DNA of 48,253 nucleotides from the IMG/VR virus record IMGVR_UViG_3300030406_001057, positions 2,189 to 50,441 of that record; one strand, given 5' to 3'. Made by a program: the position numbers and the translations under genes. Numbering within the stretch: position 1 is the first letter of the stretch; every line of letters starts with the position of its first letter. The notes under the pieces were generated by a model. It saw only the letters and a program-made list of their open reading frames with translations. It did no database searches and was not told the DNA's origin. Shown here piece after piece: positions 3,151-12,378 of the stretch. This stretch comes from a virus.

Positions 3151-3352
3151 ACCTTGGATAATTGCCGAGGTAGAAGCGGTTGAAGATGCTGTACTGGGAG
3201 AACCAGATTGTATTCTTATCAACCCTGTAACAGTTGATGGTGAGAAGTGGCCACAGTATTCTGATGATACTGAGGTTGCTCTTAGATCTTCTGATATAAT
3301 TGTAATGGTTAATGCTTCTAAGGAAGCATCTAAGAAGAATTTGATTGAATGA
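3119..3352 (+). CDS. small hypothetical protein, possible third Sm-like member
   Basis: Seventy-seven residues, overlapping the previous gene by 32 bases and the polymerase start by 4 (ATGA). The core has WIIAEVEAVEDAV, DCILINPVTVDG, then SSDIIVMVNAS: a strand-turn-strand order like its two upstream neighbours but without their WNP segment. The coupling to gp43 suggests translation levels tied to the polymerase. Function unknown. Confidence 0.65.
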   Translation: MEKKLLKIQSEPWIIAEVEAVEDAVLGEPDCILINPVTVDGEKWPQYSDDTEVALRSSDIIVMVNASKEASKKNLIE

Positions 3353-5838
3353 AATTTTACACAAACGTTGAACAAGCAGGAAATAATCTGCTAGTACGCG
3401 GATATGAAGGTGGGCAGGCATTTAGTTACAAGGTTAAGTTTAACCCTACACTATACCTGCCCTCTTCTAATTTCTCTAAGTGGAGAACACTAGAGGGAGA
3501 GTGTGTGCAACCAATGAAGCAAGGAACTATTTCTGATGCAAAAGAAACAGTAGCAAGATACCGTGATGCAACCAACATGCAAGTGTATGGGAACACACGG
3601 TATTTGTATCAGTATATTGCTGAAGAATATCCTGCTGATCATGTAATGTTTGATCCCAAACAAATTCGTGTATTCAACATTGATATTGAAACTGCTGCAG
3701 AGAATGGATTCCCAGATATTGAAACTGCTGATCAGGAGATCCTTGCTATTTCGCTAAAGGATTCTCACACTGGTCGCATTACAGTTTGGGGTGCTCGTCC
3801 ATTTAAAAACACAGACAATAAAGTTGACTACTTACACTTTAGAACTGAGTCTGGAATGCTTCAAGCGTTCTTAGAGTATTGGATGAAAAATTATCCTGAT
3901 GTTATTACTGGTTGGAATGTTCAGCTTTTTGATATTCCCTATATTGCTGGGCGCATTGATAGGGTACTTGGTGATCGCTATACTCGTTTTCTTAGCCCGT
4001 GGAATCTTATCTCTAGACGAGAGATTTATATCAAAGGGAGAAAGCAAATTGCCTATGATCTTCCAGGGATTGCTACGTTGGATTATCTGGAACTATACAG
4101 AAAGTTTACGTACTCTAATCAAGAGAGTTACAAACTGGACTACATCTGTTCTGTCGAACTCGGGGAGAAAAAACTAGATCACTCTGAGTATGATACGTTC
4201 AAAGAGTTCTACGAAAACGACTGGCAAAAGTTTATCGAGTATAACATTCATGACGTACGTCTGGTTGATAAACTTGACGGTAAAATGAAGTTACTTGACC
4301 TAGCATTTACAATGGCGTATGATGCTAAGGTCAACTACGAAGATGTGTTTTCACAAGTTCGTATGTGGGATAACTATATCTACGTAGAACTTCTTAAAAG
4401 AAAGATTGCTATTCCTCCTAAAAAGGAAAGTAATAAAGATGAGAAGTATGCAGGTGCATACGTTAAGGAACCTAATCCTGGAATGTATGATTGGGTGGTA
4501 TCATTTGACTTAAATAGTCTATACCCCCACTTGATCATGCAGTACAATATCTCCCCTGAGACACTACAGGATGTTAAACATCCAACAGTAACTGTTGATA
4601 AGATACTCAATCAAGAAGTAAATATTAATGGTCCATTTGCTGTCTGTGCTAATGGTGCTCAATACAGCAGAGAAAAGCAGGGGTTTCTGCCTCAGTTGAT
4701 GCAGAAGATGTATGACGAGCGTGTTATTTTCAAGAAGAAAATGATCACTGCTATGAAGGAGTATGAAAAAAATCCTAGTGTAGAACTATCTAATGAAATT
4801 GCTAGATGTAATAACATTCAAATGGCGAAAAAGATCTCTCTCAATAGTGCTTATGGTGCTATTGGTAATGAACATTTTCGCTATTATAAACTTGCCAACG
4901 CAGAAGCTATTACACTATCTGGTCAGGTTTCTATCCGTTGGATAGAAAACAAAATGAATGCTTACCTAAACAAAATACTTAAAACAAAGGAGGTTGACTA
5001 TGTTATTGCTTCAGATACTGATTCCATCTACCTTAATCTTGGTCCTTTGGTCGAGGTTATATACAAAGAACGAGAAAAGACTACTGAGAGTATTGTTGGG
5101 TTCCTTAACAAGATCTGTGAGGTGGAATTTGAAAAGTATATTGAGAGTTCTTACAAAGCGTTGGCCAACTACGTCAACGCCTATGATCAGAAAATGACTA
5201 TGAAGCGGGAGAATATCGCTGATCGTGGTATTTGGACTGCTAAGAAAAGATACATTTTAAATGTATGGGATAGTGAAGGGGTTCGATACAAAGAACCTAA
5301 ACTAAAAATTATGGGACTAGAAACTGCTAGGTCTTCTACTCCTGCATATTTTAGAACAAAACTATATGATGCTTTTAAGATGATCGTTACTAAGACTAAT
5401 GATGATCTTATTAAATACATTGAAGACACCAAGAGAGAGACAAATTCTCAGGATTATTCTGAGATCTCTTTCCCTCGAGGAGTAAATGGTTTGAATAAGT
5501 ATCAAAGTAAATCTGATATCTATCAGAAAGGCACACCTATTCATGTAAGGGGTGCATTGTTGTACAATTATTACATTCGTAAGAACAACATTCAGAACAA
5601 ACATCAGATGATTCAAGAAGGTGAGAAGATTAAGTTTGTGTATTTAAAAATGCCTAATCCAATCATGGAAAATTGTATTTCATACTTCAGTGAAATACCA
5701 AAAGAGTTTGGACTAGACAATTATATTGATCACAATCTACAGTTTGATAAATCTTTCTTGAAACCTCTGGAAAATGTGCTAGAATGTATTGGTTGGACAA
5801 GTAAGAAAATCGTCACCCTTGATAGATTCTTTGGATGA
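3349..5838 (+). CDS. 43: DNA polymerase, family B (gp43)
   Basis: The replicative polymerase, with 3'-5' exonuclease and polymerase domains, 829 residues (T4 gp43 is about 900). Exonuclease motifs: FNIDIET (Asp112, Glu114), ITGWNVQLFDIPY (about 186-198) and YNIHDVRL (Asp302). Polymerase motif A is SFDLNSLYP (Asp387), motif B is KKISLNSAYGAIGN (about 494-507) and motif C is ASDTDSIY (Asp556, Asp558). WTAKKRY is the conserved KKRY segment. The C-terminus LDRFFG resembles the clamp-binding peptide used to attach to gp45. All catalytic residues are present. The stop overlaps a small ORF start at 5835. Confidence 0.98.
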   Translation: MKFYTNVEQAGNNLLVRGYEGGQAFSYKVKFNPTLYLPSSNFSKWRTLEGECVQPMKQGTISDAKETVARYRDATNMQVYGNTRYLYQYIAEEYPADHVMFDPKQIRVFNIDIETAAENGFPDIETADQEILAISLKDSHTGRITVWGARPFKNTDNKVDYLHFRTESGMLQAFLEYWMKNYPDVITGWNVQLFDIPYIAGRIDRVLGDRYTRFLSPWNLISRREIYIKGRKQIAYDLPGIATLDYLELYRKFTYSNQESYKLDYICSVELGEKKLDHSEYDTFKEFYENDWQKFIEYNIHDVRLVDKLDGKMKLLDLAFTMAYDAKVNYEDVFSQVRMWDNYIYVELLKRKIAIPPKKESNKDEKYAGAYVKEPNPGMYDWVVSFDLNSLYPHLIMQYNISPETLQDVKHPTVTVDKILNQEVNINGPFAVCANGAQYSREKQGFLPQLMQKMYDERVIFKKKMITAMKEYEKNPSVELSNEIARCNNIQMAKKISLNSAYGAIGNEHFRYYKLANAEAITLSGQVSIRWIENKMNAYLNKILKTKEVDYVIASDTDSIYLNLGPLVEVIYKEREKTTESIVGFLNKICEVEFEKYIESSYKALANYVNAYDQKMTMKRENIADRGIWTAKKRYILNVWDSEGVRYKEPKLKIMGLETARSSTPAYFRTKLYDAFKMIVTKTNDDLIKYIEDTKRETNSQDYSEISFPRGVNGLNKYQSKSDIYQKGTPIHVRGALLYNYYIRKNNIQNKHQMIQEGEKIKFVYLKMPNPIMENCISYFSEIPKEFGLDNYIDHNLQFDKSFLKPLENVLECIGWTSKKIVTLDRFFG

Positions 5839-6011
5839 CTAAAAAGGTTTTCGTCGTCACCTGGACTAATTCAGTCGTAGGTCAGGTTAGTCCTGATAGC
5901 ATTAAATTGTTTGAGGACTATACAACTGCTCTTGGTTTTGCTAAACTTATGAGCAAAGAATATAATTATGTAAATTTTTATGAGGATGAAGCAACACAAT
6001 GGGATTCTTAG
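5835..6011 (+). CDS. 58-residue hypothetical protein between gp43 and uvsX
   Basis: A short ORF that overlaps the gp43 stop by 4 bases (ATGA) and the uvsX start by 13, filling the only gap between them. It reads [31 protein letters not shown], then [18 protein letters not shown]. The alternation of strand and helix (VFVVTW, then [15 protein letters not shown]) looks like a real small alpha/beta protein. Function unknown. Both overlaps fit the packing style of this region and support it. Confidence 0.72.
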
Positions 6012-7015
6012 ATACTGTAATTAAAGATAGTGGAAATGAATTCGCTAGTAAAGTTAGTGAAGGAATCGCTGCAGGAGATATCACAAGTTATATTGATACT
6101 GGTTCTTATATCTTCAATGCGTTAGTTAGTGGGTCGATTTATGGAGGTCTTCCTTCTAACAAAGTTACTGCACTTGCAGGAGAGTCAAGCACAGGTAAAA
6201 CATTCTTTGCTTTGAGTGTTGTTCGCAATTTCCTTGAACTCAATCCTACAGGAGGAGTTATATACTTTGAGTCTGAGTCAGCAATTTCTAAATCCATGAT
6301 TGAAGAACGTGGTATTGACTCTAATCGTATGATTATGATGCCTGTTTCTACGATTGAAGAATTTCGTACACAGGCAAGTAGGATTCTTGATAAGTATTTG
6401 AAAGAACCTAAAGATCAACGTGTACCTATGATGTTTGTCCTAGACAGTCTTGGTATGCTTTCAACCTCTAAAGAAATGGAGGACGTCTCTAATGATAAAC
6501 AAGTCAGAGACATGACTAAGAGTCAATTGATCAAAGGTGCTTTCCGTGTATTGACTTTGAAACTAGGACAAGCAAACGTTCCTATGCTAGTTACTAATCA
6601 TACATATGATGTAATAGGATCCTATGTTCCCACAAAAGAAATGGGTGGAGGTACAGGTCTCAAGTATGCAGCATCTAGTATCATCTATCTTACAAAGAGT
6701 AAAGAACGTGATAGTAAAAAAGAAGTTGTGGGTAACATTATTAAGTGTGAAGCAAAAAAATCTCGTTTAACAGTGGAGGGTAGTAAAATTGCAACACGTC
6801 TATTTTTTGACGAACGTGGTCTCGATAAGTACTATGGACTCTTGGAACTCGGCATTGACCACGGGATCTTTGGAAAGAACGGCAATAGAGTTCTTATTGG
6901 TAAATCTTCCGTTTATCCTTCTGCTGTCCTTGCTGATCCCGAAAAGTATTTCACCCCCGAGGTCATGACCAAACTTGACCAAGCAGCAGAAAAGGAGTTT
7001 GCTTATGGCAACTGA
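5999..7015 (+). CDS. uvsX: UvsX recombinase (RecA-like)
   Basis: Strand-exchange protein of phage recombination and recombination-dependent replication, 338 residues. Walker A is [11 protein letters not shown] (about residues 61-71). Walker B is [11 protein letters not shown] (about 143-153). A following segment with [13 protein letters not shown] and [12 protein letters not shown], then [13 protein letters not shown], matches the DNA-binding loop region of RecA/UvsX. It overlaps the small upstream ORF and the helicase gene, so polymerase, recombinase and helicase are probably made together. Confidence 0.96.
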
Positions 7016-8399
7016 GAGGATAGAAGAAACAATTGTTCGGAACCTCTTGTGTAATGAAGAATACTATAGGAAAGTTATTCCTCATCTCGACACATCATAC
7101 TTTGAAAACAATGTAGATAAAACTATCTTTGAAGAGATTCAAGACTTCTCTTGTAAGTATGATAAGTTGCCCACGAAAGAAGTCCTTAGGATTAGTTTAG
7201 GACAGAGAAATGATGTTACAGATGAAATATACAAGTGCTCTATAGATCAGATTACTTCTTATACTGACGAGTGGGTTGATTATAATTGGTTAGTTGACGC
7301 AACAGAAAAATGGTGTCAAGAACGTGCTATCTATAATGCACTCATGCAATCTATTAAGATTGCTGATGGTGGAGATAAGAAAGTAAAGAAAGATGCAATC
7401 CCCTCAATACTACAGGATGCTCTTAGTGTATCTTTTGATGAGCATATTGGACATGACTACATAGAATCTGCTGACGAAAGATATGAATTTTATCATAGAG
7501 ATGAAGAAAAAATACCGTTTGATCTCGAGAAGTTTAACCACATTACAAAAGGTGGTATCCCTAATAAGACTCTCAATGTCGCACTTGCTGGTACTGGTGT
7601 CGGGAAAAGTTTATTCATGTGCCATATGGCTAGCGCCGCGCTCATGCAAGGGCGTAACGTTCTCTATGTTACACTTGAAATGGCAGAAGAAAAAATTGCT
7701 GAACGAATTGATGCAAACTGTCTCAACATCAACATCAAAGACTTAACTGATGTTCCACAAGTAATGTTTAGATCTAAGATCTCTGACTTACAACGTAAAA
7801 CTAAAGGTAAACTTATAATTAAAGAATACCCTACAGCATCTGCACACGCAGGACATTTTCGTTCTTTATTGAATGATCTGACCTTGAAAAAACAGTTCAA
7901 ACCTGATATAATATTTGTAGATTATCTTAACATCTGTGCTAGTGTTAGATACAAAGGTGCTATTGTAAATTCTTACACCTATGTTAAAGCAATTGCTGAA
8001 GAACTCAGAGGTCTTGCCTGTGAGTTTGATCTACCCATTGTATCCGCTACTCAGACTACTAGGTCTGGTTATGGTAATAGTGATGTTGACCTTACTGATA
8101 CTTCAGAATCCTTTGGTCTACCTGCCACTGCTGATCTCATGTTCGCTCTTATCAGCACTGACGAGTTAGAGGCAGAAAATAAAATCTTGGTTAAACAACT
8201 TAAGAACAGATACAATGATCCAACTGTTAATAGAAAATTTGTAGTTGGTATTGATCGTGCTAAGATGAAACTATATGATGTTGATGATTCTCAACAGCAA
8301 CTAATAAATGATGCTGAAGACGATGACGTAGCAGATTCACTTGACTCTCTTAAAAAGAATCAAGCACGACTATCTAAATTTGCTGAATGGAATTATTAG
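7005..8399 (+). CDS. 41: replicative DNA helicase (gp41, DnaB-like)
   Basis: A 464-residue hexameric helicase that unwinds the fork and works with primase gp61. The start at 7005 has AAAAGGAG 5 bases upstream and overlaps uvsX by 11 bases; a longer TTG-start frame from 6975 is unlikely. An N-terminal helical domain (about 1-140) precedes the RecA-like core with Walker [12 protein letters not shown] (about 195-205), [10 protein letters not shown], Walker [13 protein letters not shown], and a SATQTTRSG segment. The C-terminus is acidic and then basic. Confidence 0.96.
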
Positions 8400-8657
8400 A
8401 TGACACTTTCTAAAGAAACAATAGATAAACTTGCTGACGCACTTACATTAGAAGTTATTGATTATATTATTGATAACCCTAAGACAAAAACATTTCTATA
8501 TGAAATGATTAGCGACGCACTATGTGATAAGTTAGGTAACAAGAATGAAGACGGTACTTGCTCTTTTGATAGCAGTTTTCTTACCCCTGCTGTTCTTGAT
8601 AAAATCACATTAACACTTACTCCTAACACAATGCCCTCTGACCCTGCGACATTATGA
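8400..8657 (+). CDS. small hypothetical protein
   Basis: Eighty-five residues, starting at the base after the helicase stop and overlapping mazG by 4. The first half is predicted helical (KETIDKLADALTLEVIDYII, YEMISDALCDKL); the second is Ser/Thr/Pro-rich. Its place between helicase and mazG suggests a minor replication or nucleotide-pool role, but no motif is visible. Confidence 0.72.
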   Translation: MTLSKETIDKLADALTLEVIDYIIDNPKTKTFLYEMISDALCDKLGNKNEDGTCSFDSSFLTPAVLDKITLTLTPNTMPSDPATL

Positions 8658-9076
8658 CTACTCCTATTGATCCTACCGTTGATTACAACAAATATATTGA
8701 CTTTGTTGACTCTACTACCAGTTTCCCTTCAAAAGATGCTGAAGAATTTGTAGCTCGAATATATGATTTGAAAGAAAAAGGTGTAAACATTGAACGTCTC
8801 CTGACCGCTGCTGTTGGTATTACTGCTGAGGGTGGTGAGTTTACTGAGATTGTTAAGAAGATAGCATTTCAAGGTAAGGAACTAAATGATGATACAAAAA
8901 CTCATCTTGTAAAAGAAATGGGTGATGTGTTTTGGTATCTAGCACAAGCATGTCTCGCACTAAATGTAGATTTTCAAACAGTTGTGATGACTAACATGAT
9001 GAAACTTGCAGCAAGATACCCTGATGGTAAGTTTGATATTCAAAAATCAGAAGTCCGCAAGGAAGGAGACATCTAA
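8654..9076 (+). CDS. mazG: MazG-like nucleotide pyrophosphohydrolase
   Basis: A single MazG-type all-alpha NTP pyrophosphatase domain in 140 residues, as in other cyanophages. Metal-binding signature: EGGEFTEIVKKI (about 59-70), then KEMGDVFWYLA (about 88-98), the expected ExxE...ExxD arrangement. MazG-type enzymes cleave NTPs, dNTPs or ppGpp; in cyanophages the role may be dNTP salvage or manipulation of the stringent response, which the sequence cannot settle. GGTAAG..KFDI near the end is typical of the phage clade. A terminator follows. Confidence 0.93.
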   Translation: MTTPIDPTVDYNKYIDFVDSTTSFPSKDAEEFVARIYDLKEKGVNIERLLTAAVGITAEGGEFTEIVKKIAFQGKELNDDTKTHLVKEMGDVFWYLAQACLALNVDFQTVVMTNMMKLAARYPDGKFDIQKSEVRKEGDI

Positions 9077-9120: not shown

Positions 9121-10350
9121 ATGGCTAAACTAGCATTCGATCAACTTTTCCGTAACGGGAAACCATATATGAAAAGAGACGATGTGTTGATAGATCGTAT
9201 TGCTAATGGAAAGTTGTTTGAGTTGTCAGATAATAGAGGATATTTAAAAGTATTTGATATTGTAGTAAGGTTTCAAGATGGTAGTGAGTCAAAGTATAAG
9301 AGTTCAGATTTAAGCAATGAAAGCGTAGTAAGGATATTAAAAGCAGAGATGCTTAGTTGTGCTAATCAAAAAGGTGGTAAGAAAAAGATATTATTAACAG
9401 GGTCACAGAGTGATCATGATGACTCACTAGTAGCAACATATAGTTTAACAGATTTAGAGAAAACTCATCATTTTGGTGGACAAAAACCTGGTGGACCTAA
9501 AGTAAACTTAGGAAATTTATATGAAGCAGACCTAGCAAATAGTTTTAATAATTTTGTAGATCATGGTGGAAAGTATCCTGATCATGTTACAACCATATTA
9601 AAAGCTATATGTCATGCTGAACCTGGAACTTGTTTCATCAGTGCGAAGCAAGAGGGTGGTGCTAATAAACCAAGACCCATGAGAGAAACTAATGGTGCTT
9701 TCTACATTTCAGCAGAAGGTAAGAATACAAAAGATATAGGTAAGACAGTAACAGATATTACATTAACAATAGCAAAACCTGGTGGTCAAGGAAAAAAGAA
9801 AATATATTTATCAGTCAAATTTGGTAGTACACTATCATTTTTTAACATAGGTGTAAGAGGTGGAGGTAGGGATGCACTATCAATATTCCCTAAACAAAAT
9901 TTACAAGAAGGTAATCTACCACAGATGGGAAAAGATTACTTAGATATGTTCAACATTGATCATCAGAAATTTTTAGATATATTTCAGAAATATGATCCTA
10001 ATGATAAGACTCCTACTGTAGATAACTACAAAGAATCATATCAGATTACAGGAACAGCAAAGAAAAACTTAGAAAATTTCTGTGCTAGTGGTATTGGATA
10101 TGGTTATTGGATGGTCCATTATGATGGTAGTTCTCTTCATTGCTATGAAGTTAACAAGACTTTTATGGAACGTGCTAGTAAATTATCCAGTAGTAAAATA
10201 GATATAGATTATGGTGGATCTCAAGGATATGGTAAGAGAGTTAACATAAATTTCTCCACTCAAGAATATGATTTTAGTTTCAATATTAGATCTAAGTCTG
10301 GTTCTGAAGTATATCCTACACACAGCAACGGAGATTATTTTAAGAAGTAA
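9121..10350 (+). CDS. conserved cyanophage protein, possible PD-(D/E)XK nuclease
   Basis: A 409-residue soluble protein of the cyanophage accessory core. A basic N-terminal third is followed by FGGQKPGGPKVNLGNLYEADL, with Glu135 in a likely helix. Next come an ISAKQEGG segment, then TDITLTI (Asp212), a Gly/Lys turn, and YLSVKFGSTLSFFNIG (Ser231-Val-Lys233). The order Glu, Asp, then S-x-K, followed by a G-S-T-L-x-x-N segment, resembles restriction-endonuclease-like enzymes such as those whose core reads SIK..GSTLLN. This is inference; no family was confirmed. It ends where the ligase-like gene begins (TAATGG). Confidence 0.75.
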   Translation: MAKLAFDQLFRNGKPYMKRDDVLIDRIANGKLFELSDNRGYLKVFDIVVRFQDGSESKYKSSDLSNESVVRILKAEMLSCANQKGGKKKILLTGSQSDHDDSLVATYSLTDLEKTHHFGGQKPGGPKVNLGNLYEADLANSFNNFVDHGGKYPDHVTTILKAICHAEPGTCFISAKQEGGANKPRPMRETNGAFYISAEGKNTKDIGKTVTDITLTIAKPGGQGKKKIYLSVKFGSTLSFFNIGVRGGGRDALSIFPKQNLQEGNLPQMGKDYLDMFNIDHQKFLDIFQKYDPNDKTPTVDNYKESYQITGTAKKNLENFCASGIGYGYWMVHYDGSSLHCYEVNKTFMERASKLSSSKIDIDYGGSQGYGKRVNINFSTQEYDFSFNIRSKSGSEVYPTHSNGDYFKK

Positions 10351-11546
10351 TGGCTAACATCAAACAACTTAAACACTTAGAACATTTGGAAGATGAGATG
10401 CTCAACTATGGAGTTGAGGGATGTAAGGCAGCAGTTTCTTTTCTTGAGGAACTGAGGAAGATGCTTGGTCATCAGGAAAGTAGTGGTTTTATGCAAACCA
10501 AATGGGATGGTGCTCCTGCTGTAATATGTGGAGTGCATCCATATACAAAAAGATTTTTTGTAGGAACTAAATCTGTATTTAATAAAGAGAATCCTAAAAT
10601 ATGCTTCTTTAATGAAGACATAGATACATTTTATGAGGGTGACCTTGCTGAAAAGTTAAAAGCATCTCTAAAATATTTCAAAGAACTAGAGATCAAAGGT
10701 GTAGTGCAAGGTGACTTGATGTTTACTTCTAAAGATTTAAGAAATGAAACCATTAACGGAGAAAAATTATACACATTTAGACCTAATACGATTACCTATG
10801 GTGTTCCTGTGCATCATGATCTTGGAACAAAAGCGAGCAGAGCAAAAATCGGCGTAGTATTTCATACACACTATGAAGGTGATGACCTTGCTACTATGCA
10901 AGCAAGGGCAGGTGCTGATGTTAAGGACTCTAATGATGTGTTTATCATAAAAAATGATACACCTATGCATAAAGTTGGTATGAGTCGTGTCGAGATGAAC
11001 AAGTTTGACCAGTCAATCCAAAAAATTGAACGTATGTGTAGGGAATCTGGTGATTTCTTGAATGAATTGGTTGATGCTCAAGGTAAAACTGGTGACGCAA
11101 AGTTTCATATCTCTTCTTTCTTAAAACCTTTCTTCAATGATGAGATTAAAAACGCTAGATCAATAGGAAATGTATCACAGACTCTAGAAAATCTTGCTAA
11201 TTTTTATCATGCAAAAACATCAAAAGAATTAGCAAAGATTAAAACAGAAAAGAACCTTGTTGCTAAGAGAAATCTTGTATATAAGAGTGAAAACTATCTC
11301 ATGGAGAATGAGACTAAATTTAAAGCGATGCTTTCTCTTTATAAAGAGTTGCAAGAAGTAAAGCAAATGGTTATAGATAAACTCGATCACCTAGAAAAGT
11401 TCAGAACATTTGTTCAAACTGAGAATGGGTATAAGGTTACTACTCCTGAGGGATATGTTCTTCATAAAGATGGAAGTATGATTAAGTTCGTCAACCGTTT
11501 GGAGTTTGCATTTAATAACTTTACTCTACAGAAACAATGGCGTTAG
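10350..11546 (+). CDS. nucleotidyltransferase/ligase-like protein (DUF6267-like)
   Basis: A 398-residue protein, probably of the DUF6267 group common in cyanophages. I read into it the ordered motifs of covalent nucleotidyltransferases (DNA/RNA ligases and capping enzymes). Motif I is TKWDGAPAV, with candidate nucleophile Lys51. The motif III position is VVQGDLMF (about 118-125). The IIIa position is IGVVFHTHYEG (about 167-177). Motif IV is PEGYVLH (Glu367) and motif V is MIKFVN (Lys379). A long helical insert (about 230-345) lies between IIIa and IV. The predicted activity is Lys-AMP formation and nucleic-acid joining or end modification. The stop overlaps the next gene by 10 bases. Confidence 0.8.
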   Translation: MANIKQLKHLEHLEDEMLNYGVEGCKAAVSFLEELRKMLGHQESSGFMQTKWDGAPAVICGVHPYTKRFFVGTKSVFNKENPKICFFNEDIDTFYEGDLAEKLKASLKYFKELEIKGVVQGDLMFTSKDLRNETINGEKLYTFRPNTITYGVPVHHDLGTKASRAKIGVVFHTHYEGDDLATMQARAGADVKDSNDVFIIKNDTPMHKVGMSRVEMNKFDQSIQKIERMCRESGDFLNELVDAQGKTGDAKFHISSFLKPFFNDEIKNARSIGNVSQTLENLANFYHAKTSKELAKIKTEKNLVAKRNLVYKSENYLMENETKFKAMLSLYKELQEVKQMVIDKLDHLEKFRTFVQTENGYKVTTPEGYVLHKDGSMIKFVNRLEFAFNNFTLQKQWR

Positions 11547-12100
11547 ACGGAAAGGTTTGCTTCTTTACATTTGGTAGGTTTCAACCACCTACCACTGGTC
11601 ATGCTGAGAGTTTTAATAGTGTAAAGCGTGCAGCAGGGACAAATGATTATTTGCTTTATATCTCACAGAGTGTTGATACAAAAGGTAGTAATCCTCTTCC
11701 TCCTGAGGTAAAATTGTCTTATATGAATAAGATGTTTCCGCAGCATAGAGGTAAAATTATTTCTGGACCTAGAGATCCAGTAGCAATTATGCAAGATCTA
11801 ATGATGAGAGGATATGATGAAGTTCATTTTCTAGTAGGATCTGATAGAGTTAACGCTATGAAGTTCCTACATAGATATAATGGTACTGAATATTCTTTTC
11901 GTAAAATTTATATTGAATCTTCTGGTAGCAGGGACGCGGACGGAGATACATTTTCTATCTCTGGAACTAAAATGAGACGTGCTGCTAATGATGGAGACTT
12001 TAAGGCATTTCGCCAAGGGATTCCTAGGTCACTATCAGATCAAGATACAAGAAAATTGATGCGAGAAATTGCTAATAGACTACCCGCTAACTTTAAATGA
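11537..12100 (+). CDS. HIGH-superfamily nucleotidylyltransferase (NMNAT-like)
   Basis: A 187-residue Rossmann-type nucleotidylyltransferase. The ATP-binding N-terminus is FGRFQPPTTGH (residues 12-22), the HxGH-type motif. FLVGSDR is at 98-104 and the C-terminal ISGTKMR at 141-147 matches the ISSTxxR motif. Relatives include nicotinamide-mononucleotide adenylyltransferase and pantetheine-phosphate adenylyltransferase; NAD synthesis or adenylylation of some other phosphate is possible. It is coupled to the ligase-like gene by a 10-base overlap. The substrate is not determined. Confidence 0.88.
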   Translation: MALDGKVCFFTFGRFQPPTTGHAESFNSVKRAAGTNDYLLYISQSVDTKGSNPLPPEVKLSYMNKMFPQHRGKIISGPRDPVAIMQDLMMRGYDEVHFLVGSDRVNAMKFLHRYNGTEYSFRKIYIESSGSRDADGDTFSISGTKMRRAANDGDFKAFRQGIPRSLSDQDTRKLMREIANRLPANFK

Positions 12101-12378
12101 AAACTTTTAAAGATATAAAAGAACAAGCACTCAGACAAAATTTCCGTAAAGGTAATGTCTTTACTGAAGGGAAGACTGTTATGAATGTAAACACTGGTGC
12201 AAAAGGAAAAATCATTCGCACTGGTCCAAACTATGTAATTTGTGTGACTGAAAGTAATGAGATGTTCCGCGCATGGGTGCGAGACATCAGGGAAGTCAAC
12301 GAAGTTATAAATAAACCAAGGAGAACACTATTTTTTACTCATGGACAAGCCAACACCGTCAACATCAGTGCGACATAA
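12097..12378 (+). CDS. small basic hypothetical protein, KOW/SH3-like core
   Basis: Ninety-three residues, overlapping the previous stop by 4 bases (ATGA). The core FTEGKTVMNVNTGAKGKIIRTGPNYVICVT looks like a small beta-barrel of KOW or SH3 type that could bind nucleic acid; this is inference. The tail (EVINKPRRTLFFTHG onward) overlaps the next gene by 38 bases. Confidence 0.65.
   Translation: MKTFKDIKEQALRQNFRKGNVFTEGKTVMNVNTGAKGKIIRTGPNYVICVTESNEMFRAWVRDIREVNEVINKPRRTLFFTHGQANTVNISAT

Follow-up and report, generated by a model that had tools for sequence, protein, structure and literature searches.

Few viruses in the ocean are as abundant as the T4-like cyanophages, whose replisome has been reported to lack a recognizable DNA ligase (PMC2984593, PMC7824862). 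Cyanomyoviruses are without a homologue of T4 gene 30 (g30), with a distant, unrecognized ligase homologue left open (PMC2984593), and most group 2.1 cyanophages have no known ligase, yet encode a ligase DNA-binding domain as a protein of its own (AAX44695; PMC7824862). Among described RNA ligases, RLIG1 is active with His in motif IIIa and has no additional RNA-binding domain; the structure closest to it is that of the Naegleria RNA ligase NgrRnl (PMC11494293). Here we analyze a gene in a 48,253-nucleotide stretch of viral DNA (IMG/VR record IMGVR_UViG_3300030406_001057, positions 2,189 to 50,441), which we refer to as the window. The gene, at 10350..11546 on the plus strand, encodes a protein of the Pfam family DUF6267 (PF19782). 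As the best explanation of our data, and with a probability of roughly 0.65, we propose to place DUF6267 in the DNA/RNA ligase superfamily, as a divergent covalent nucleotidyltransferase that likely seals polynucleotide breaks. Within this known superfamily it would be a new divergent branch, with a motif IIIa His, a single motif V Lys and a helical insert.

Results

The DUF6267 gene of the window is a genuine open reading frame (ORF) of 398 codons with an ATG start. Its product matches the DUF6267 model at E 1.9e-124 (416 bits against a gathering cut-off of 27) and is also assigned to phrog_455; neither family has an assigned function, and family members additionally carry the label T4-like gene cluster 71 (GC 71). 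Our literature search found no paper that names DUF6267. The window sits in a 50.9-kb virus record whose nearest relatives are Kyanoviridae, the T4-like cyanophages. Conservation was assessed in 94 diverse DUF6267 relatives that are 25-83% identical to the window protein.

An AlphaFold model of the protein, built on the 94-row alignment, reached a predicted local distance difference test score (pLDDT) of 92.1 and a predicted template-modelling score of 0.87. We re-aligned the top 1000 PDB chains from Foldseek to this model with VIA-align. The best row was the Naegleria RNA ligase (Z 9.0 over 179 residues at 3.8 Å), with further Z-scores of 7.4 for T4 Rnl2, 7.1 for T4 Rnl1, 6.6 for DNA ligase I and 5.6 for a T4-ligase structure, and ranks 1-25 were held without exception by ligases, which are covalent nucleotidyltransferases. 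An earlier sequence-only reading of this DNA had seen DNA/RNA-ligase-type motifs in the protein and had proposed a comparison with T4 RNA ligases and ATP-dependent DNA ligases. Because VIA-align gives the ends of aligned ranges only, we made a second, motif-to-motif model from a short-form relative (L090), extending from four residues before the motif I Lys to three residues after the motif V Lys. This fragment was modelled at pLDDT 93.7, and 50 of its 50 VIA-align rows were DNA, RNA or tRNA ligases.

In the second model, the motif I Lys is in register with K170 of NgrRnl, K35 of Rnl2, K99 of Rnl1, K568 of hLig1, K87 of TbREL1, K148 of fungal Trl1 and K97 of an archaeal Rnl, and the motif V Lys with NgrRnl K326, Rnl2 K225, Rnl1 K240, hLig1 K744 and REL1 K307. 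The register was read from alignment end-points and holds if the few terminal residues are free of gaps. PDB titles list mutants of NgrRnl at K170, D172, K326, E227 and E312, and the T4 Rnl2 residues were checked in its sequence; for the other ligases we take the catalytic and motif V identities of these lysines to be as established. Around motifs III, IIIa and IV, the strands of the model also come in an order that agrees with the ligase fold, and VIA-align returns the nucleotidyltransferase (ATP-grasp-like) fold for both models. As far as predicted structures can speak, no single piece of evidence for ligase kinship is stronger than this register of the lysines in several ligase families. 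With two models returning ligases and the lysines of motifs I and V in register, the ligase-type interpretation of the sequence-only reading gains support, and the models make a ligase-type nucleotidyltransferase fold and active site very probable. It is conceivable that the motifs are coincidental and sit on a fold unrelated to ligases, as the lack of significance in Foldseek and profile comparisons alone might suggest; this is extremely improbable, given that the top VIA-align rows are all ligases and that a motif-blind alignment returned the exact register of motifs I and V.

The main features of the protein are located as follows.

10374..10394, plus strand: N-terminal HLEHLED (residues 9-15), 5' of motif I, a family signature
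10497..10511, plus strand: motif I, TKWDG (residues 50-54), invariant, with the predicted AMP acceptor Lys51 in structural register with ligase catalytic lysines
10569..10571, plus strand: Lys74 within FFVGTKSVFN (residues 69-78), invariant in the 94 relatives, placed by spacing
10707..10715, plus strand: motif III, QGD (residues 120-122), with Asp where classical ligases have Glu
10863..10874, plus strand: motif IIIa, HTHY (residues 172-175), with His for Phe
10986..11393, plus strand: helical stretch separating motif IIIa from motif IV (residues 213-348), from the secondary structure of the model
11448..11459, plus strand: motif IV, EGYV (residues 367-370), placed by conservation
11484..11498, plus strand: motif V, KFVNR (residues 379-383), with the first Lys kept, an invariant Arg, and register on motif V lysines

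All five strings quoted in the sequence-only reading lie where it had placed them, with TKWDG starting at residue 50, VVQGDLMF at 118, IGVVFHTHY at 167, PEGYVLH at 366 and MIKFVN at 377, and the Lys of TKWDG is residue 51, as it had said. Both the order pattern and the near-invariance of these residues among the 94 relatives set the ligase-type motifs beyond chance. A regular expression for the motif order is matched by 241 of 249 family members, by 2 of the 1081 other ORFs in these loci and by 0.22% of shuffled versions of the window protein. Invariant across the 94 sequences are K51, D53, G54, K74, Q120, D122, H172 and T173, as well as H9, H12, E14 and D15 of HLEHLED; E367 and G368 are present in 99% and K379 in 98-99%; the remaining sequences have alignment gaps there, and at least some of these members are cut short by their contig. 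Lys51 thereby provides the lysine of a KxDG/KxxG motif I, and E367/G368 the EG of motif IV. Very distant relatives (22-24% identity) keep K51, D53, G54, Q120, D122, H172, T173, E367, G368, K379, V381 and R383; K74 is not kept in them. Judged by its place in the sequence, Lys74 may correspond to the Arg of motif Ia, which is R55 in T4 Rnl2.

The long helical insert that had been noted between motifs IIIa and IV is borne out by helices within residues 213-348 of the model, and it is indeed unusual: the IIIa-IV spacing is 195 residues in the window protein and 132 in the short form, exceeding the 85 of Rnl2 and the 45 of RLIG1. Members of the family share the insert, which is longer in one form, found in the clade of the window, and shorter in the other. 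After the motif V Arg, only 15 residues forming one helix remain to the end of the protein.

Characterized ligases share some features with DUF6267 and differ from it in others. NgrRnl (PDB 5cou, 6vt8) is the best structural match, sharing the nucleotidyltransferase fold and the register of the motif I and V lysines, and in both proteins the nucleotidyltransferase domain ends soon after motif V. The two have no significant sequence similarity, however, the N-terminal OB domain of NgrRnl is not seen in DUF6267, and DUF6267 differs in its long IIIa-IV helical region, its motif III Asp, its motif IIIa His and its one motif V Lys. T4 Rnl2 (PF09414) resembles DUF6267 in motif order and rough spacing, with K51 in register with K35 and K379 with K225, but there is no hidden Markov model (HMM) match, the C-terminal domain of Rnl2 is missing and motif V reads KxV in DUF6267. 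RLIG1 (C12orf29 and viral homologues) shares KxDG, the motif IIIa His, the motif IV Glu, a single discussed motif V Lys, a nucleotidyltransferase unit that lacks a distinct RNA-binding domain, and NgrRnl as the closest structure (PMC11494293); it differs in having Glu in motif III and a I-III spacing of 101 residues versus 71, and no sequence link between the two was found, a direct comparison not having been made. The T4 gp30-type DNA ligases belong to the same superfamily and, functionally, to the replication module, whereas DUF6267 has neither a PF01068 match nor an OB domain.

Searches with sequence alone did not reach these families. Neither phmmer nor a profile search of the PDB with DUF6267 found a ligase, and the Pfam matches listed for the 94 members include no ligase family (PF09414, PF01068), OB domain or RLIG1-type family. 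The adenylation domain of NAD+-dependent DNA ligases (PF01653) has no match in the virus's own record or in related phages. DUF6267 does not fall in the RNA ligase 2 family (PF09414), with no profile match among those listed and no C-terminal domain after motif V, nor among the ATP-dependent DNA ligases with OB domain and motif VI, with no PF01068 or OB match among those listed and just one helix after motif V.

By tblastn, DUF6267 occurs in 468 phage records, comprising 368 Synechococcus, 61 Cyanophage and 24 Prochlorococcus records and a few others. Its spread among cyanophages is close to that of the phage DNA polymerase (gp43: 376 Synechococcus and 61 Cyanophage records). PF01068, the gp30-type ligase, was found in 0 of 10 Kyanoviridae genomes tested, and PF09414 and PF09511 were not found in those Kyanoviridae genomes searched for them; T4 carries all three. 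The lack of a match to any further known RNA ligase family in the genomes searched is consistent with DUF6267 being an RNA-repair ligase that rejoins tRNA or other RNA cut by host defence nucleases, like T4 Rnl1 and RLIG1. Such a role is also in keeping with the top structural scores, which belong to the RNA ligases NgrRnl, Rnl2 and Rnl1, with a motif IIIa His that RLIG1 has too, and with the absence of an OB domain. The Z-scores of RNA and DNA ligases are too close to tell the two apart, however, the gene is near-universal in its clade rather than sporadic, and it sits in a DNA replication module; we regard RNA repair as possible, though unlikely. The module, upstream of DUF6267, consists of the following genes.

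3349..9076, plus strand: replication module (gp43, UvsX, gp41, MazG)
3349-5838, plus strand: DNA polymerase gp43
5999-7015, plus strand: UvsX
6975-8399, plus strand: gp41 helicase
8654-9076, plus strand: MazG

The standalone domain AAX44695 of P-SSM2 (L284:15440-16063) was identified here as DUF6433 (PF20025, phrog_461), which Pfam and PHROGs list without a function. DUF6433 is present in 10 of 10 Kyanoviridae genomes tested, and its distribution resembles that of DUF6267. The Pfam DUF6433 model matches the N-terminus of the complete ligase of Stenotrophomonas phage DLP_6 (E 6.5e-4), and an HMM extended with diverse members finds the N-termini of DLP_6 and other gp30-type ligases, mostly at E 2e-5 to 4e-3 (2e-5 for DLP_6), as well as T4 gp30 at E 0.019 in the same N-terminal register; a simple HHalign of DUF6433 against T4 gp30 gave no match. 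PF04675 (DNA_ligase_A_N), tried as a model of the gp30 N-domain, was absent everywhere including T4 and is hence the wrong model. These profile matches identify DUF6433 as homologous to the DNA-binding domain at the N-terminus of gp30-type ligases, but standing alone. Taken together with the DUF6267 models, this homology would mean that these phages encode two ligase parts apart from each other: a DNA-binding domain that lacks its catalytic half, and a ligase-type catalytic domain that lacks an OB or DNA-binding domain.

The gene directly 3' of DUF6267 in the window overlaps its stop by 10 bases.

11537..12100, plus strand: HxGH-type nucleotidyltransferase, resembling nicotinamide mononucleotide (NMN) and nicotinic acid mononucleotide (NaMN) adenylyltransferases

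This gene is named 'cytidyltransferase' in phage records, but its best scores are against NMN/NaMN adenylyltransferase models, not cytidylyltransferases; the closest curated models are nadR in 6 of 10 members and TIGR00482 (down to 7e-8), far below equivalog cut-offs. Counting neighbors in IMG/VR and phage-record loci, with loci clipped by a contig end left out, we found the HxGH gene directly 3' of DUF6267 in 142 of 148 long-form loci versus 14 of 55 assessable short-form loci. In S-PM2 the two domains are fused in one 591-residue ORF (resequenced record LN828717); the older record AJ630128 gives two tblastn pieces annotated as separate products, a discrepancy that suggests a frameshift or sequencing difference. 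Two very distant 939-residue proteins (L425:1819-4635 and L427:285-3101) fuse DUF6267, HxGH and a C-terminal domain.

It is possible, then, that DUF6267 is a covalent nucleotidyltransferase acting on a small molecule, cofactor or protein in one pathway with the HxGH transferase. The translational coupling, the adjacency in long-form loci, the fusions and the likeness of the partner to NMN/NaMN adenylyltransferases all speak for it. On the other side, 41 of the 55 assessable short-form loci do not adjoin an HxGH gene, and the scaffold is common to polynucleotide ligases and capping enzymes, so that a non-polynucleotide substrate is, in our view, distinctly unlikely.

Discussion

Our proposal that DUF6267 is a ligase-type enzyme sealing polynucleotide breaks must be weighed against several observations. 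In motif III, the classical Glu is replaced by an invariant Asp122 (a conservative change); in motif IIIa, the aromatic stacking residue is replaced by an invariant His172 followed by Thr; and motif V is KxVxR versus the classical KxK, with the second Lys replaced by Val or Ile. Foldseek searches of the PDB gave no significant hit for either model (best ligase E 0.56, with the fragment), and the VIA-align Z-scores of 7-9 are modest in absolute terms and come from alignments of predicted models. HHalign of DUF6267 was not significant against the T4 Rnl2 family or against the gp30 family, the gp30 alignment including one wrong ORF (antisense, from DLP_6); sub-significant segments do set the QxD of DUF6267 motif III on the FGE of Rnl2. 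In DLP_6, DUF6267 and DUF6433 occur alongside a complete ATP-dependent DNA ligase, the absence of gp30 may go back to one event at the level of the clade and the presence of DUF6267 to another, an OB domain after motif V is absent, and plain nick sealing gives no account of the coupling to an NMN adenylyltransferase-like enzyme.

With Foldseek and profiles not significant by themselves, the relationship between DUF6267 and ligases must be very remote. The altered Glu, Phe and second Lys might also be expected of a catalytically dead ligase descendant whose present function is in binding or as a scaffold. This is very improbable: Lys51, Asp53, Gly54, Asp122, His172, Glu367 and Lys379 are near-invariant down to 22% identity, a pattern not expected once catalysis is lost. 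Since DLP_6 also has a full ligase, DUF6267 is not simply a substitute for gp30. DNA ligases use an OB domain after motif V, and the lack of one makes DNA sealing by DUF6267 alone uncertain.

Turning to the mechanism of the proposed ligase-type enzyme, Lys51 would attack the alpha-phosphate of ATP (or NAD+) to form lysyl-AMP, which would be held by Asp53, Lys74, Asp122, His172, Glu367 and Lys379. The AMP would then be passed to a 5'-phosphate and the strand break sealed. We consider it probable that the enzyme works on polynucleotide ends. Its target might be bound by the helical insert, by the standalone DUF6433, or by both, so DUF6267 and DUF6433 may act together. Regarding the nature of the substrate, structure leans slightly towards RNA ligases, whereas gene context and phyletic pattern lean slightly towards DNA. 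The latter leaning follows from the location of the gene in a gp43-uvsX-gp41-mazG module, its near-universal occurrence, the lack of gp30 and the presence of DUF6433. The likeliest single job would be nick sealing in the phage replication/recombination module, in place of the missing gp30 ligase, and we put forward DNA nick sealing as the main role tentatively.

A more elaborate version, which we regard as quite improbable, is that DUF6267 might be the catalytic subunit of a split replisome ligase acting in trans, recruited to nicks by DUF6433, while the HxGH partner would recycle released NMN to NAD+ if NAD+ were the donor. If true, a self-recycling nick sealer across the Kyanoviridae would replace the T4 gene 30 ligase. 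More generally, a ligase-type active site in a near-universal gene near gp43, uvsX and gp41 may supply the catalytic domain reportedly missing from the cyanophage replisome, and this gap can now be tested. Our proposal, if correct, would give a function to the DUF6267 family of 468 phage records and link it to an NMN adenylyltransferase-like partner.

Upstream of DUF6267, the window carries a gene that shares one base with the DUF6267 start.

9121..10350, plus strand: phrog_8438 gene, 409 residues

The gene in this position is highly variable among phages and belongs to several unrelated PHROGs (window; L082, L083, L084, L085, L087). A D...SxK-like motif, spotted by eye only, is kept in these genes. 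We looked for a nuclease identity and did not confirm one; from its sequence, the variable gene is possibly a diversifying nuclease.

Several further observations concern the HxGH gene and its surroundings. In the jumbo phages slurp01 and Cassandra an HxGH gene is present, and DUF6267 was not found near it. The HxGH protein of DLP_6 (L084:6682-8850) is 722 residues long, with a long C-terminal extension in which a DGHHR-type stretch appears ParB-like by eye. The contigs L425 and L427, which encode the 939-residue fusions, are binned as a Firmicutes metagenome-assembled genome, and the C-terminal domain of these fusions shows, by eye, a PD-(D/E)XK-like motif, GPFE...GDVKIGDYQVEVKS. Finally, a 93-residue ORF at 12097-12378 of the window matches phrog_4808 ('ribonucleotide reductase alpha subunit') and is far too short for that label, which is probably a carried-over misannotation; the ORF looks more like the extension that certain HxGH proteins (phrog_395) have at their C-terminus.
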